From Microscillaceae bacterium (GTDB lineage Bacteria > Bacteroidota > Bacteroidia > Cytophagales > Microscillaceae), in the NCBI GenBank assembly GCA_011390205.1, contig JAABSX010000014.1:1-64000 (forward strand): a DNA stretch of 64,000 nucleotides. The letters are read 5' to 3'. The notes under the pieces are model-generated. The model ran no database searches and was not told the DNA's origin. It saw only the letters and a list, made by a program, of their open reading frames with translations. This document shows, one piece after another, positions 1 to 48,697 of this stretch. Within the stretch, counting starts at the first letter, position 1. Each line of letters begins with the position of its first letter. The position numbers were made by a program, and so were the translations under genes.

Positions 1-157
1 CCCTAACTAATATCTAAAAAAACGACTATATGATGCAAAAGCCTTTGCTCAGAGCGAGACGCATCTGACCAGTTTGCAGTTGTGGGTTACGCTTAACGAC
101 ATAGCCTTAGACCAGACGGGGTCTTCAAAGCCTACCACATAGCCCTGCTTGATGGGG
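1..157. other. Left edge, no intact gene
   Basis: No complete gene is visible. Both strands have open stretches of about 35-45 codons, on the minus strand ending in a TGA near 50 and on the plus strand running from about 11 to a stop near 140, but neither has a convincing start. The base composition is richer in GC than the adjacent lipoprotein gene. It may be a coding remnant left by the rearrangements seen in the neighbouring RHS region. That is an inference. Confidence 0.3.
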
Positions 158-796
158 TTATTTTAATAATCTCACTTCTGTATTTGAATAATCAATCACA
201 TCTCTAAGAATATTCCCTTGTGGTGAAATAATATGACTTTCCTCATCTTTATCCTTAAAATAAGAACCAATAAATCCTTTTTTCCGACTTAAGAATATTA
301 CTTGGTCTAACTTGAAATCTCCAAGATGATTATACCCATCTAAAAGAATAAATTTATACACAATATCATCAGATTGGAAATTGTATTTGTTTTCTAGTAA
401 TAATTTAACTTTTTCTTTTGGCTGATCAAAAAATGGGATTGCTACTTCATATGTCTTGCCTTTCTCAACCTTAAAATCAAAAAGTTTGAAAACTGAAGAT
501 TTGGGATTTTGTATTTCAAAAGATAGACCACCAGATTCTTTATAAACAATTGCAGTAGAGGATAAATTTATACTATCTACATAAAACATAAAACTTGCTT
601 CGTACTTACAATTCCCAAGTGATTTCTCGATGAAAAATGTGGGTCTCTCATATTTTGTTAATATTGTATCAAGTTCAAAGTTACAGTTTACAATTTTACT
701 CTTATCACCACATGATGAAAATAGCATCACTAAGAACAAAATTAAGATAGAAGAACTATTTGATGCTAACTTAATCTTTTTTGACATTCTTTTCAT
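158..796 (-). CDS. Lipoprotein, candidate immunity protein for the RHS toxin
   Basis: About 212 residues. The N-terminus is a lipoprotein signal: basic residues, a hydrophobic run and a lipobox ending FSSC, so export and lipidation are likely. I recognise no family. The ATG at 796 is preferred to a TTG at 802, and an internal ATG at 787 also fits. The gene begins inside the last codons of the RHS toxin gene (26-nt overlap), the arrangement expected for a cognate immunity gene that must be co-expressed with its toxin. Like the toxin tip it is clearly AT-rich compared with the RHS core, which suggests the tip and this gene arrived as one cassette. The immunity role is inferred from position only. 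An ordinary envelope lipoprotein is the alternative. Confidence 0.6.
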   Translation of the reverse strand: MKRMSKKIKLASNSSSILILFLVMLFSSCGDKSKIVNCNFELDTILTKYERPTFFIEKSLGNCKYEASFMFYVDSINLSSTAIVYKESGGLSFEIQNPKSSVFKLFDFKVEKGKTYEVAIPFFDQPKEKVKLLLENKYNFQSDDIVYKFILLDGYNHLGDFKLDQVIFLSRKKGFIGSYFKDKDEESHIISPQGNILRDVIDYSNTEVRLLK

Positions 797-2240
797 TCTC
801 AATTATTTTATCTATTTCCTTATACTGTTTATTTGCTTTTGACTTAGAATATTTAGAGTCTGACTTTACTTCTTTATCATTTGGCGAGGTTTTACTTTTT
901 TCATCATAATATTTACCATGGTCTTCTGCTTCTTTCTCTACGCCTTTGTTGCCATCAATTGTACTTTCAGCGTGAAATTCCTCATGATTTAATGTATATG
1001 TAGCTTCGTTTAGTTCTTCTTTATCTGTTAGTTTGTAGGCAACACCAACCAAAATCAACTTTTTGTCTTTTTCTAAAGACAATGAGACTGCTTCTTCTGT
1101 TACACCAACAAATGTACTACTATTATTCTTTTTTAACTTTTTAAAGTCATCGATTTTTGAAATTGAAGTACTTACACCCTCTCCTAATCCACTTTGAAAA
1201 TAAAGTACATTGTATTCTGATTGACTTTTTAATTTGGAGAAAAACCTTTGTCCACCAGAAGTTTGTCTTTGGATTTTGTAAACTTTATCAAAATTTTTAG
1301 ATCTTGCTTTCATAAAAAATACTTTTTCTAGTCCTTCAAGTTCTATGTGAGCAGTTACGTTATTCTCACTAAAAGCATAAACGCTATTGTATAGATAGTC
1401 TTCTGCAAGAGGGTCAACCGAAAAGAACCTACCTAACTGCACATCTGCATTACGCCATTTGAAGCTAGACCAGTTTAAGTTAAAGTCTTTGATTTTTTCT
1501 TGTCCTTGGAATTGCCATAAATTATCAGGCATCCCTTGTTTCTCAATCCCCACCAGATTCATACCGAAGGGATAGTAGTGGTTTTCTTGGGCGATGAGGG
1601 CTTTGTCCCAAGTGATTTCCATATCATCATACCATACGGGGGCATCAGACTCATTGGCTACGAAGATTTGCAATGTACCTTCTATCTCTGCTTCAAAATC
1701 AAAGGTCATCAACTGCCAAGCACTTCCGCTCGACAAAGGAACAACAGGCACAGCCCTCACAAAGTTGCCTTCTTTGTCAAAAAATTGCCCTCTGAGGTAT
1801 GACTTCGGTACGCTTGGCGAAGTACTGTAACTTACTGGAAAGGCTATCAAGCCCGCACTCAGCCAAGTCGGATTGTTATTGCCCTCGCTGGCGGGCATCG
1901 TAGCTGGCAAGGGATTGATAAAAGGAATGAGGCTGATGTTGTTGTTGGTAGGAGGGCTTACATACTTGCCATAGACCTCTACTGTTACCTTGTCTCCTTT
2001 GGTTACAGGCAGACTTTTCCACATACCGATAGGCTGGGCTTGGGTGAGTTTGGACGAATATAAGTCTGTACGTTTTTGTGTACCGTCTCGGGTTTGGTCT
2101 ATGAAGTCAAAGACCATATTTTCGGGCTGTCCGTTGGTAGTGGCATTGCTTTCTATGGTGGCATTGAATACCTCGTCTTCTTGGTCACGGAAGGATACTC
2201 TAAGATTACCTAGATGGTCTTTGTATTGGTATTCTGGCAC
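771..2240 (-). CDS. 5'-truncated RHS-family polymorphic toxin with HExxH tip
   Basis: The conventional start is a GTG at 2240, but RHS-like coding continues upstream in the same frame to a TAA at 2373-2375, with residues matching the IGGFIYEDDELAFFPHAEGR block of Bacteroidota RHS proteins. The gene is therefore a 3' fragment without its signal peptide and most YD repeats. Recognisable RHS-core motifs are the DHLGNLRVSF block near the start and HYYPFGMNLVG around residue 220, then the RFFSVDPLA-type core boundary. The variable tip (about residues 305-489) contains NHEEFH, with an HExxH zincin motif at His419-His423 (bases 972-986). The terminus is Lys-rich. In the RHS family such tips are toxins delivered into neighbouring cells. 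A metallopeptidase activity is inferred from the motif alone. Without an N-terminus this may be an unexpressed orphan tip kept as a recombination donor. Confidence 0.7.
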   Translation of the reverse strand: MPEYQYKDHLGNLRVSFRDQEDEVFNATIESNATTNGQPENMVFDFIDQTRDGTQKRTDLYSSKLTQAQPIGMWKSLPVTKGDKVTVEVYGKYVSPPTNNNISLIPFINPLPATMPASEGNNNPTWLSAGLIAFPVSYSTSPSVPKSYLRGQFFDKEGNFVRAVPVVPLSSGSAWQLMTFDFEAEIEGTLQIFVANESDAPVWYDDMEITWDKALIAQENHYYPFGMNLVGIEKQGMPDNLWQFQGQEKIKDFNLNWSSFKWRNADVQLGRFFSVDPLAEDYLYNSVYAFSENNVTAHIELEGLEKVFFMKARSKNFDKVYKIQRQTSGGQRFFSKLKSQSEYNVLYFQSGLGEGVSTSISKIDDFKKLKKNNSSTFVGVTEEAVSLSLEKDKKLILVGVAYKLTDKEELNEATYTLNHEEFHAESTIDGNKGVEKEAEDHGKYYDEKSKTSPNDKEVKSDSKYSKSKANKQYKEIDKIIENEKNVKKD

Positions 2241-2339
2241 GAAAGCCCCATCTATGGGTAGCCATCTACCTTCTGCGTGTGGGAAAAAGGCGAGTTCGTC
2301 ATCTTCATAGATAAAGCCTCCGATGTAGAAGTGTATTGG

Positions 2340-2891
2340 ACGCTGTCTATTGTAGGTATAGCAGGTGTTGTTTTATTTGGAAGATTGGCTTTCAAAACTT
2401 CTAGCATTTATTTCAATTACAGAGACATCACAAAGGATATCGAGAAAATAAGTCAGGTATTGCTCAAATAGCTGATTTATGCAAATATTATCAAAACGCC
2501 TCTTTCCAAGCTGAGGTTAGAAGCTTCAGTAGATAAAAAAGGGGCAATATACTGCCATATTGAGGGAGTAACTACTTTTGAAAAATCGACCTTTATCAAT
2601 GCTTTGCAAGAGATTCTCTTGCCTATTCAGAATCCTTGTTATGTCATTATCCGCAAAAGCAAAAGTCTATTATTTTCTAAACAAGAAGACTACCACGCAG
2701 TGCCCGAGGCAATAGGGCGAAATAAGTATTTGGCTGCTTATTTTACTGATCAATGGAGGAAATATGTGGGAGAATGTGAGATAGTCTTCACAAGAAATAT
2801 AGAAGGGCGAAAACTGCTTCTCACTTCGAGGTTAGCGGCACTTTCTGCCCAGTTTGAAGAGCGTTTAGAACATATACACAAGTGGACATAA
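2340..2891 (+). pseudogene. C-terminal remnant of a DEAD/DEAH-helicase-family protein
   Basis: One continuous plus-strand frame runs from about 2340 to the TAA at 2889-2891, interrupted only by an amber TAG at 2469-2471. Reading through the TAG gives a coherent protein end of about 180 residues (for example IIKTPLSKLRLEASVD, DYHAVPEAIG and EGRKLLLTSRLAALSAQFE). I associate these with the C-terminus of large Bacteroidota DEAD/DEAH helicase-family proteins, recalled rather than searched. No helicase motifs remain, and the 5' side meets RHS coding on the opposite strand near 2335-2350. The parts called separately, 2277-2471 and 2604-2891, belong to this one broken gene. A terminator follows directly. 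Confidence 0.6.
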
Positions 2892-2893
2892 TT

Positions 2894-2942
2894 TTTCCAA
2901 CTTCCTATTTATGTAACACAAATAGAAAGTTGGAAATTTTTT
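2894..2942 (+). terminator. Rho-independent terminator after the helicase remnant
   Basis: A 17-bp stem with one mismatch (TTTCCAACTT arm at 2894-2910, partner 2920-2936) and a 9-base loop, followed by TTTTTT at 2937-2942. It lies between convergent genes, so it may also limit transcription of the fasciclin gene arriving from the right. Confidence 0.8.
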
Positions 2943-2956
2943 ACTTCAATGCTTAA

Positions 2957-3526
2957 TTATTTTCCGTCTGGAGGCAGAATTACAGCATCAATGATATGCA
3001 CTACACCGTTGCTTGCAGCTACGTCGGCTGCTGTTACGGTAGCTTTGTCATTTAATTTTACGCCATCTTTAGTGCTGATAGTAATTTCTGCACCGTTAAG
3101 GGTAGCTGCTTTCTGACCATCGGTTAAGTCAGTGGACATTACTTTGCCAGACACCACATGGTACTTCAAGATACCAGCTAATTTTTCTTTGTTTTCAGGC
3201 TTGAGTAAGTCATCAAGCGTAGTGCCTAAGGCTGCAAATGCTTCATTGGTAGGAGCAAACACTGTGAAAGGACCTTCACCACTAAGTGCTTCTACTAGCC
3301 CAGCTGCTTGTAATGCTTTTACCAAAGTAGCCAGATTTTCAGTTTCCTGTGCCAATGTTACGATGCTTTTAGCTTCTACGGCTTCGGCTTCGGTTGGCTC
3401 AACCATTTCTTCAGTTGAATCTGTGGCAGTTGTATCAGTTTCGCCTTCAGTCTTAGACTCGCCGCCGCAGCTTGCAAGCATTGCACCGATTGCAAGTAGG
3501 ATTGGAAATAACAATAATTTTTTCAT
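2957..3526 (-). CDS. Fasciclin (FAS1) domain lipoprotein
   Basis: 189 residues. A lipoprotein signal (lipobox LASC) is followed by an acidic Thr/Glu-rich linker to about residue 50, then one FAS1 domain to the C-terminus. The H1-like block is FTVFAPTNEAFAAL, followed by LKYHVVSGKV, and the H2 block near the end is NGVVHIIDAVILPP. FAS1 domains mediate adhesion or matrix binding on cell surfaces. In Bacteroidota single-domain FAS1 lipoproteins are common and their ligands unknown. The gene stands alone: nothing is co-directional within 190 bases upstream, and its 3' end faces the helicase remnant. Family assignment is secure; role and inner or outer membrane location are not shown by the sequence. 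Confidence 0.92.
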   Translation of the reverse strand: MKKLLLFPILLAIGAMLASCGGESKTEGETDTTATDSTEEMVEPTEAEAVEAKSIVTLAQETENLATLVKALQAAGLVEALSGEGPFTVFAPTNEAFAALGTTLDDLLKPENKEKLAGILKYHVVSGKVMSTDLTDGQKAATLNGAEITISTKDGVKLNDKATVTAADVAASNGVVHIIDAVILPPDGK

Positions 3527-46510: not shown

Positions 46511-46741
46511 ATGAAAAATTTATTTAAAAAAACCCTACTTACTCTGCTGCTTACTTTGTCTTGTCTTGCTTTTATGATAATTATTCCTTCTCAAAAAGCT
46601 GAGGCAAAGACCTGTGCAAAATCTACAGACCTTGAGTCAGGTTGCAGATACATGGGAGATGACTGTATTGTCTGGGAACATGTAGATGATGACCAAGATT
46701 GTCCAAGTGGGAGTATTTCAGAGTTTGAAAATTTTCAATAA
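46511..46741 (+). CDS. Small exported four-cysteine peptide
   Basis: 76 residues. A signal peptide ends at AEA (residue 32), leaving an acidic mature peptide of about 44 residues with exactly four cysteines (Cys35, 45, 52, 64), one Trp and a DDDQD run. The even, well-spaced cysteines suggest two disulfides, as in secreted bacterial peptides. I recognise no family; it resembles in layout, not in sequence, the small peptides that sit beside propeller lipoproteins in Bacteroides. It heads a three-gene cassette with a DUF4221 lipoprotein and a CIHC thioredoxin-fold lipoprotein. Its own weak terminator follows, which would make it the most abundant product. Role unknown. Confidence 0.72.
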   Translation: MKNLFKKTLLTLLLTLSCLAFMIIIPSQKAEAKTCAKSTDLESGCRYMGDDCIVWEHVDDDQDCPSGSISEFENFQ

Positions 46742-46756
46742 TATTTCCATTAAAAT

Positions 46757-46796
46757 AAAGGCTTATCTGGGTTTTGAATACTTAGAAAGCCTTTTA
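46757..46796 (+). terminator. Possible attenuating hairpin after the four-Cys peptide gene
   Basis: AAAGGCTT (46757-46764) pairs with AAGCCTTT (46787-46794) around a 22-base loop, ending in TTTT broken by A. The short U-tract suggests partial termination with read-through into the lipoprotein gene 23 bases on. Confidence 0.5.
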
Positions 46797-46818
46797 CTCA
46801 CTTTATTAAACATAAAAA

Positions 46819-47979
46819 ATGACACATTATAGACCTTACTTACTGGTTATATTATTGACTGTTTTGCTATGTTATGGATGCGTAGAGTCAAAGAGGGAAG
46901 AAGCAAGAAGTAATGCTGCTGAGCATAAAAGTGATTTTACTTTGAGACCTGCTACATCACTCATTATAGATATAGATACACTTACAAGTTTTACAAGTAA
47001 CTACCTAGCCTACTATGAGGATAAAACAAGCCAAAAACAACTATTGGCTTACCTCAATAATACCAATAATGAAATTCAATTTTATGATATAAAAGCCAAA
47101 AAACTAGAGTTTAGAGTTGCCTTTGATGAAAAATCTAATATCAGTCAGCTTGATGGATTTCATATCATTAGTCTTGATTCTATCTTAGTAGCTTCTGAGG
47201 CTAAAATTTATTTTCATCTGAGTAATCGGAAAGGACAAAGTCTAAAAACTTATAAAGCTGAACCTAAAGATGGTTTGTATTCCTTTTCTACTATTGAGAA
47301 CTTTACCAGACTGGGCTTGCTGTCAGATAAGCGTTTTGTATATCATCGAGCACCTTATTATCCTCCAAGAAAGAAGGGCTTCTGGAGTTTTCCTATCACA
47401 TTTGCTAAACATCTAGAAACAGGAAAACTAGATACTTTATTCAAGTATGAAGGTACAAGAGCAGATGATGAATTTACAGGTGGTTTTTTACCCTATTCTT
47501 TTGAGCAAAATGAAAAAGAGGAGTTTGTGTATTCTTTTTTTATGGATAATTATATTTATCTTACTAACTTTCAGCAGAAGTCTAAGGCTTATTATGCAGG
47601 ATCTAAATATTTTGAAAATATACCTTCTATGGCTTCTGTTCCTAATGATACAAAAAAAGAAAAAATATTTTTCAGAGAAAACTTCTCTTATCGCCAAATT
47701 ATCTATGATAAATTCAGAAAAGTATATTATCGTTTTGTGCTGCACCCTACCAAGCCTGATGAGCCAGACTATCTACATGGTAAGCCTTTTTCTGTTATTA
47801 TATTAGATGAAAAACTAGCAATAATAGGTGAAACAAAGGTATTCAAAGAAAAGATGTATTACAGCAATTACTTTGTAGCACCCGAAGGCTTATATATTTC
47901 TCAGAATCATATCGAGAACCCCGAAGTAAATGAAGATAAGCTAAATTTTAGACTGTTTGAATTGATCAAAAATGAGTAA
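46819..47979 (+). CDS. DUF4221-like lipoprotein
   Basis: 386 residues. The lipoprotein signal has a lipobox near LCYGC (Cys21). The mature protein is rich in beta strands of propeller type (ASEAKIYFHLSNRKGQSL, PFSVIILDEKLAIIGETK) and its overall layout fits the DUF4221 family of Bacteroidota lipoproteins, recognised by eye only. These are predicted six-bladed propellers, with no known function, typically exposed at the outer membrane or periplasm. It is translated in overlap with the next gene (8 bases), so the products are probably needed together. Codon use is AT-rich relative to the rsmH region. Confidence 0.72.
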   Translation: MTHYRPYLLVILLTVLLCYGCVESKREEARSNAAEHKSDFTLRPATSLIIDIDTLTSFTSNYLAYYEDKTSQKQLLAYLNNTNNEIQFYDIKAKKLEFRVAFDEKSNISQLDGFHIISLDSILVASEAKIYFHLSNRKGQSLKTYKAEPKDGLYSFSTIENFTRLGLLSDKRFVYHRAPYYPPRKKGFWSFPITFAKHLETGKLDTLFKYEGTRADDEFTGGFLPYSFEQNEKEEFVYSFFMDNYIYLTNFQQKSKAYYAGSKYFENIPSMASVPNDTKKEKIFFRENFSYRQIIYDKFRKVYYRFVLHPTKPDEPDYLHGKPFSVIILDEKLAIIGETKVFKEKMYYSNYFVAPEGLYISQNHIENPEVNEDKLNFRLFELIKNE

Positions 47980-48418
47980 ATTCACTTTCTTCATATTGTT
48001 ATTCCTGCTATCTTGCCAAGGAGCAGAGCATCAAGATAGTTACCTCAAAAAACTTATCAGCAGCCATAATAAATCGCTCAAAGATGTAGAAGTATGTTAT
48101 TTGATAGCTCAAGATAGATGCATACATTGCCTAGACATCTCTGCTCAGTTTATCCGAAAACACAGCAACAATCCTAAGATTCTATTCATCATTACTAATG
48201 TAATTGGTAGTAAAGAGCTTCGTCTAAAATATGGGCAAGATTTTGTAATAGGTGAGAACATTATCATAGATACTAAAAATATAGCCATTCATCATAAAAT
48301 GATTGAATCAAATCCAGTGGTGTTTTTCTTAGATAATCATGCAAAAATCACAAAACAAATAAGTGTCTCTCCATCCAAACTTAAAAATATGCTTGCAGAG
48401 ATTGAAAAAGCTATATGA
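47972..48418 (+). CDS. Thioredoxin-fold lipoprotein with CIHC motif
   Basis: 148 residues. A short lipoprotein signal (lipobox LLSC, Cys15). The remainder reads as a thioredoxin-like fold: first strand VEVCYLIAQDRCIHCLD with the redox-type motif Cys50-Ile-His-Cys53, and the usual cis-Pro loop as SNPVVFFLD (Pro114). The His in the second CxxC variable position recalls DsbA's CPHC and favours an oxidising potential, a family-based inference. The gene overlaps DUF4221 by 8 bases. A role in forming or checking disulfides in the four-Cys peptide is an attractive but untested hypothesis. Confidence 0.72.
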   Translation: MSKFTFFILLFLLSCQGAEHQDSYLKKLISSHNKSLKDVEVCYLIAQDRCIHCLDISAQFIRKHSNNPKILFIITNVIGSKELRLKYGQDFVIGENIIIDTKNIAIHHKMIESNPVVFFLDNHAKITKQISVSPSKLKNMLAEIEKAI

Positions 48419-48440: not shown

Positions 48441-48697
48441 TCAAACCCACTTTCCGCACCCTCTTTTTGGCAATGAATGATTTACATCAAAAAGCTATAA
48501 TATGTCACGCCTACGGCGTTTCTCTTTCTTGGCTTGGTATTTTCTACAAAGATGACAAGCCTACGGCTTTTTTAAGTCCGTTAGGGCTGAAATCTTTGTA
48601 GCAAAAGCGATTAAAAAGCGTAACCAACACCTTTAGGTGTGGCATCTTTGACGTAAATCAAAGAATACCTGAGAAAGGGTGCGAAAAGAGAGTTCAA
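48441..48697. repeat. MITE-like palindromic element
   Basis: About 257 bp bounded by imperfect ~50-bp inverted repeats. The left arm is 48441-48491, including CGCACCC and GATTTACATCAAA; the right arm is 48647-48697, including TTTGACGTAAATC and GGGTGCG. Inside is a second inverted pair CTACAAAGAT (48544-48553)/ATCTTTGTAG (48592-48601). There are also four short palindromes: ACGCCTACGGCGT (48507), AAGCCTACGGCTT (48557), AGTCCGTTAGGGCT (48575) and ACACCTTTAGGTGT (48627). There is no ORF. Similar hairpin-rich intergenic elements exist in Bacteroidota genomes. I know no defined function. Confidence 0.75.

Follow-up and report, generated by a model that had tools for sequence, protein, structure and literature searches.

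What joins three consecutive genes on the forward strand of a Microscillaceae genome, encoding a short exported peptide (p), a DUF4221 propeller lipoprotein (D) and a thioredoxin-fold lipoprotein (T), and what might they do together? They lie in the window, the 64,000-nucleotide stretch of contig JAABSX010000014.1 that was analysed here (Table 1). The initial annotation, whose positions for the trio, CIHC motif and 8-base overlap of the start of the T ORF with the end of the D ORF are all present in the sequence, had read them as a secreted disulfide peptide provided with its own oxidoreductase. We give about an even chance to the proposal of a Bacteroidota module in which the trio makes, folds and handles a secreted disulfide peptide; the argument for it is built up below from the three proteins, the recurrence of their gene order and the company that they keep.

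Table 1. Features of the trio locus in the window, with glycosyltransferase genes of related loci
Feature	Position	Strand	Length, basis or remark
p, short exported acidic peptide	46511..46741	+	ORF, 76 aa
Intercistronic hairpin, 15 bp	46757..46794 (about)	+	folding z -3.7; equivalent gaps alike
D, DUF4221 beta-propeller lipoprotein	46819..47979	+	386 aa; PF13970, AF2, Foldseek, phmmer
T, thioredoxin-fold lipoprotein, C50-I-H-C53, near-invariant Pro115	47972..48418	+	148 aa; AF2, Foldseek, VIA, alignment A5
MITE-like dispersed palindromic repeat 3' of the trio	48502..48645	+	own-genome matches
Glycosyltransferase	L124 10758-12125, 14340-15713; L141 3314-4681; L145 5331-6695; L153 1930-3282		directly after T

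By profile, sequence and predicted fold, D is a member of DUF4221. It matches PF13970 with 102.7 bits (Pfam cut-off 23.4); the sole PDB sequence that phmmer retrieves with it at E<=0.1 is 3S9J (3.8e-26), which is also the best Foldseek match of its AF2 model (20 sequences, pLDDT 81), at TMq 0.77 and 26% identity over 372 columns. 3S9J is BVU_1028 of Bacteroides vulgatus, a solved DUF4221 fold released in 2011; the openly licensed literature searched yielded no mention of either DUF4221 or BVU_1028, whose names carry no function. One column of D holds a Cys in 55 of the 56 D-T loci, the next richest in only 5 of 56, and this near-invariant Cys is presumed to be the lipid anchor. The nearest relative of the window protein among 20 aligned (53% identity) is encoded on L052, a contig of genome G009. 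Two regions, L159 and L214, carry tandem arrays of about 13 DUF4221 genes with neither peptide nor T; their genomes lie within the order and share the family and genus code of the Algoriphagus-type G047. The idea that these arrays consist of orphan immunity genes was considered and set aside: 25 D of these arrays group in a single clade (support 1.0), separate from the D that are linked to p or T.

The identity of T comes from its predicted structure. The window protein (C15 in a lipobox-like place) has no Pfam family at E<=1 and no meaningful NCBIfam match, none of the T proteins scanned scores over the cut-off of a Pfam or NCBIfam profile (the L172 protein reaches 17.3 bits with Redoxin, cut-off 26.6, and 16.1 with Thioredoxin_2, cut-off 27), and no PDB sequence is matched below E 0.01. 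The AF2 model (15 sequences; pLDDT 90, pTM 0.80) has a thioredoxin fold with the CxxC at the start of the helix after the first strand. Its Foldseek matches are ResA, CcmG, DsbE and StoA (E from 6e-6, TM about 0.47), and VIA gives Z 9.4 for both StoA and ResA; peroxiredoxins, which make up many of the fold neighbours, follow closely. In alignment A5, C53 is invariant and C50 and P115 are nearly so. T is confidently predicted to be a ResA/TlpA-like member of the thioredoxin superfamily with a CxxC and a putative cis-Pro. It shares with ResA, StoA, CcmG and TlpA the fold, the CxxC, the near-invariant Pro and the membrane anchor, and differs from them in its only middling TM-score to ResA and in the variants of its motif described below. 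The label DsbA-like, under which T had first been described, is better exchanged for ResA/TlpA-like: an inserted helical domain in the thioredoxin fold is a feature of DsbA, the 148-residue model has no such domain, and its fold is nearer ResA, StoA and CcmG.

When the motif is read by regular expression within residues 31-110, 51 of the 58 T that adjoin a propeller gene have CxxC, three have CxC and four lack the second Cys, with CxxA, CxxT or CxxY in its place (CHGY in L046, 7653-8093; CQGA in L187, 4882, and L188, 6168; CPGT in L193, 4750). Judged by their motifs, these last are unfit to act as ordinary two-Cys oxidases. A joint loss of Cys from peptide and T was tried as a pattern and dropped: L046 fits it, the sole peptide upstream of the CHGY protein being devoid of Cys, but L187 and L188 contradict it, their first genes retaining many Cys.

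The peptide is the least familiar of the three. Window p has no Pfam family at E<=1, no meaningful NCBIfam match and no match to PF14055 (NVEALA), whose motif is absent, and a search of its own genome returns, above noise, itself alone. It has a signal-like N-terminus followed, by rule of thumb, by an acidic mature part of about 44 aa (about residues 33-76) with four Cys. The signal peptide rule is our own and crude (a hydrophobic stretch of ten residues that is free of D/E and preceded by K/R); the peptide rule, applied to ORFs from the first ATG, takes 45-110 aa and two or more Cys beyond the hydrophobic stretch, and misses a peptide that is present in L123. The 36 peptides that precede D-T pairs have two Cys (3 cases), three (1), four (22), five (2), six (5), seven (1) or eight (2), the number being even in 32 of them. 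Conservation of the Cys, on which the initial annotation had staked its reading, stands in part: all four are kept in the Algoriphagus-type peptides of L043, L126 and L130, and four are common, in a by-eye comparison, to the C89 peptide of the own genome (L038) and the C278 peptide of G009 (L051), but the pair L136/L139 has two versus six. Just upstream of D on the G009 contig L052 lies a peptide remnant, its frame ending CIQRQMASGNDCLRVVQVPDDQDCPAGTFEQNPNQ, that aligns with the C-terminal half of window p, three Cys included. This contig is short and apparently chimeric; in its positions 1-1500 a D tail is repeated upstream of the remnant, by chimeric assembly or tandem duplication.

p, D and T recur in this order. 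Gene order and hairpins were counted in the window together with 60 fetched regions (L038-L057 and L123-L162); for the T-motif, tree, Cys-column, RND and HTH counts L176-L215 were added (L213 and L215 being filler without a match), and L163-L175, partly the same contigs, were excluded from counts. Duplicates and genes with less than 150 bases upstream were left out of the gene-order count, as were D shorter than 250 aa (300 aa for the tree and the Cys columns). For 43 of 48 T the gene directly upstream, in the same orientation, is D; two further T are at contig edges. Read from the first ATG, the two ORFs of 30 of these 43 pairs share 1 to 53 bases. Among the five exceptions are L162, with a six-bladed DUF5128-like propeller upstream, L161, whose upstream gene has an almost identical N-terminus to that one, and L055, where the upstream stretch matches DUF4221 with no intact ORF. 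A Cys peptide precedes 36 of the 43 D-T pairs (at a p-D gap of 60-110 bases in 23 of the 36) and 12 of 40 D without T, so that a p-D pair can exist without T; a Cys peptide also precedes two of 172 control genes (ORFs no shorter than 200 aa whose distance from every system gene exceeds three genes). Once the class-wide regions are included, the loci number 38 p-D-T, 18 D-T and 15 p-D, besides 51 D alone: a Cys peptide is ahead of D in 38 of 56 D-T loci, and in the other 18 the peptide rule finds none. In L183, L188, L190, L194 and L196 the position before D is filled instead by a lipoprotein-like protein with Cys, 166-194 aa long; D-T is present in these five as well as in L185 and L193. The trio is also found in Parapedobacter koreensis (L174), Roseivirga pacifica (L175), Algoriphagus (L170-L172) and Thermoflexibacter ruber (L164), and D-T (L216) in the Phocaeicola massiliensis record OY725998.1; that record is labelled a plasmid, and the stretch is chromosomal-looking by eye (it encodes lipoamide dehydrogenase, for example). 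The same trio thus recurs elsewhere in Bacteroidota; the refuting outcome named in the initial annotation, DUF4221 and T genes never beside Cys peptides, did not occur, and the trio's exported Cys peptide in a conserved operon draws support from that recurrence.

DUF4221 is present in 13 of 57 related genomes. T occurs in five of the 15 genomes of the own GTDB family, the same five that have D, and in 37 of the 390 genomes of the order, all of them within the 82 that have D (lists compared by eye). Class-wide, T (by a wider profile) is matched in 29 of 395 genomes and DUF4221 in 28, with 14 genomes in both; weak T matches in L197, L200, L202 and L204 resemble general thioredoxins and have no D, and in L196, L198 and L199 D is detected by our own profile alone. 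With D in 37 of 37 genomes that have T in the order and in 14 of 29 in the class, the tight T-D link is therefore limited to the order and does not hold in the class-wide sample. D and T distances correlate (Mantel r 0.58 over 56 pairs, none of 2000 permutations being as high). None of 48 pattern matches in viral contigs is a T relative, and none of 34 in a first scan of named genomes with window D was confirmed.

The trio's low GC relative to rsmH, remarked on at the outset, is borne out by GC3 values of 0.26 (p), 0.25 (D) and 0.30 (T) versus 0.46 for rsmH; the mean of the window's 31 ORFs of 250 aa or more is 0.40 (sd 0.05), and the lowest value is that of D. Base composition and patchy distribution are the two features that point to a possible horizontal transfer of the trio. 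The repeat behind T, rightly picked out as MITE-like, is dispersed in the own genome, with 29 matches at about 20 places, the window copy counted (both strands match because the repeat is palindromic); one other copy is near full length, at 90%. The repeat is probably outside the system.

Between p and D of the window lies a hairpin (-15.9 kcal/mol; z -3.1 in a second run) followed by TACTCACT, a poor U-tract, just as the initial annotation had it, and such hairpins recur in relatives. Among p-D gaps of 20-150 bases, to which the analysis was confined, 24 of 29 fold with z<-2 and 23 with z<-3 (mean z -4.0) versus 23 and 14 of 88 control gaps of 28-150 bases between other co-directional genes (mean z -1.0); the Fisher p values, 1e-7 for z<-2 and 8e-10 for z<-3, carry no correction for relatedness and, the loci being related, overstate independence. 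Stem sequences vary by locus, as does the number of T among the eight bases 3' of the stem (one to seven), and what recurs is therefore a type of structure and not a particular sequence. Some p-D hairpins may be ordinary terminators. Excess message of the upstream peptide gene is a usual effect of hairpins of this kind and would be their putative effect here.

The genes around the trio vary. Of 57 D-T pairs, 21 (in 17 regions) have an RND permease gene at most 8 kb away, a count in which pairs were not made unique and several share one pump; the permease gene counted is on the opposite strand in six of the 17 regions (L056, L124, L127, L136, L139, L181), and in nine the centre of an adaptor gene falls no more than 1.3 kb downstream of T. 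ACR_tran is matched 14 times, in about 10 genes, across the 4.5 Mb of the own genome, and we estimate that an RND gene would fall by chance in a 16-kb stretch in about 4% of cases. Near the window trio (40-53 kb) no RND or adaptor gene was recognised. In the Thermoflexibacter family (f4) an MGT/UDPGT-like glycosyltransferase gene follows T in four loci, twice in one of them (Table 1); L125 has a shorter piece of such a gene after T, and in L045, of another family, one is about 4.9 kb away. The peptide of the Thermoflexibacter family might accordingly be named a candidate for glycosylation. A small HTH regulator was considered as a regular partner and rejected, having been met in two loci only, L039 (5521-5850) and L049 (2352-2585), where the two HTH-like genes, related to each other, are near a DUF4221 gene and a small upstream gene.

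How the module would work can be sketched. With its message shielded, or D and T partly cut off, by the hairpin, p would be made in excess over D and T; its signal-like N-terminus suggests Sec export across the inner membrane. Membrane-anchored T, with its predicted fold and conserved CxxC, would then make or shuffle the disulfides of p. D, a predicted propeller, might bind the peptide once folded, serving to carry it, to present it or to confer immunity, and the adaptor and RND pump that lie nearby in many relatives may carry it from the periplasm to the outside; for the window copy, the pump would be encoded elsewhere in the genome. The main argument for this function is one of elimination. 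D has no conserved Cys other than the presumed anchor, and p is therefore the likely disulfide substrate of T; it is, going by the aligned sequences, the most likely one if T acts within its own operon, substrates elsewhere still being compatible with the data. The dedicated oxidoreductase that had been proposed for the operon is supported by this inference. Purifying selection on p in its closest orthologous pair, the mostly even Cys numbers, the conserved gene order, the correlated D and T distances, the recurrent hairpin and the nearby RND genes also favour the module. Against it stand the four T that lack the second Cys, the 18 D-T pairs in which the peptide rule finds none, the loose class-wide link of T and D, the D that have a Cys peptide but no T, the opposite strand of some pump genes, the negative result for pump genes near the window copy and the hairpins in 23 of 88 control gaps.

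An example of such an arrangement is the sublancin operon, sunA-sunT-bdbA-sunS-bdbB, described in PMC6391423 as comprising a peptide, oxidoreductases, a glycosyltransferase and an exporter. By analogy with that description, the trio may function in the manner of an operon that joins a secreted disulfide peptide to an oxidoreductase for it: both have a peptide with its own thiol-disulfide oxidoreductase and an exporter, and some of the present loci have a glycosyltransferase. The trio differs from the operon so described in its Sec-type signal and RND pump and in a glycosyltransferase that is of MGT/UDPGT type and confined to some loci; and nothing in the operon of that description corresponds to the propeller lipoprotein D. 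Eight proteins of the window were scanned with Pfam, the trio and its closest neighbours being among them, and they include neither a SunT-type exporter nor a SunS-type glycosyltransferase.

Likeness to the gene content of sublancin, as far as PMC6391423 sets it out, also suits a reading of the peptide as a bacteriocin-like toxin, folded by T, exported by the RND pump and countered by D as an immunity lipoprotein. The glycosyltransferase genes directly after T (L124, twice, L141, L145 and L153) agree with it, as do peptides that differ greatly among loci and are duplicated in some. The relative conservation of p, D and T cuts both ways: p is the lowest in two of three orthologue groups (0.51, 0.59 and 0.69 in L124-L145; 0.42, 0.47 and 0.64 in L136-L139), but the highest in L043-L130 (0.61 versus 0.46 and 0.49 for D and T), unlike an arms race. 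The mature peptides are, moreover, mostly acidic (mean charge -2.8, with cleavage by the crude rule), and the sampled tandem D arrays, being one separate clade, lend no support as orphan immunity genes; we regard the toxin as a doubtful possibility. Constraint on the peptide would be expected of an extracellular signal or surface ligand with D as its binding lipoprotein and T as its folding factor, and in the closest orthologous pair, L043/L126, pS is 0.32 and pN 0.03 with all four Cys kept, which is the mark of purifying selection on p in the aligned sequences of that pair. The own genome, too, has four D loci, with a Cys peptide directly before D in three and, in the fourth (C59), 336 bases before D's first ATG. 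The one regulator looked for, the small HTH gene, stands beside peptide-DUF4221 in just the two loci given above, and a signal is unlikely.

Were the three proteins an envelope thiol-redox or metal-handling complex, the peptide being a substrate or metal-binding partner that is not secreted, the CxxC and CxC motifs of T, its one-Cys variants, the Cys-rich peptides and the peroxiredoxins among the many fold neighbours of T would all find a place. The L038 permease beside the own-genome C89, however, the sole one scanned, scores better as multidrug type (458 versus 267 bits for CusA/CzcA, both below the curated NCBIfam cut-offs), and D offers no conserved Cys apart from its presumed anchor; we consider such a complex quite unlikely. 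That p is a stray small ORF with no connection to the two lipoprotein genes next to it might be argued from its want of a known family and of relatives above noise in its own genome. The repeated order (36 of 43 versus 2 of 172 controls), the T-D phyletic link in the order and the recurrent hairpin make this very improbable.

The preferred reading, a module for a secreted disulfide peptide, would reach further if a second kind of peptide belonged to it. In L176, from a genome of the class, a short exported Cys peptide of the NVEALA family (PF14055; 53 bits, cut-off 27) is encoded 81 bases directly upstream of a DUF4221 gene. It differs from the trio in that window p has no PF14055 match and the L176 D has no T beside it. 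NVEALA is a family that we take to be typical of Bacteroidales, and no mention of it was found in the openly licensed literature searched; nor did that literature yield a description of the p-D-T gene set. Tentatively, and at appreciably less than even chance, we extend the module to a Bacteroidota-wide class of Sec-exported disulfide peptides, glycosylated in certain lineages, with their own lipid-anchored T, a propeller carrier and RND export, of which NVEALA would be another branch. The trio ties two uncharacterised families, DUF4221 and NVEALA, and the unnamed T family to one operon logic. If the proposal is true, several Bacteroidota orders carry undescribed secreted disulfide peptides, each kind encoded along with genes that fold it and possibly export it, and a candidate ligand emerges for the DUF4221 structure.

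Some neighbourhoods of these loci deserve mention in their own right. In Phocaeicola (L216, 6521-14732) a Wzy_C ligase gene precedes D, and genes for a signal peptidase I and a transglutaminase-like lipoprotein follow T; in L176, positions 1-3526 hold genes that look similar, by eye, to these L216 neighbours, beside NVEALA peptides and D. Next to the own genome's second trio, L038 (3126-5264) encodes two further six-Cys peptides and then a DUF5128 propeller, with the RND permease beyond.
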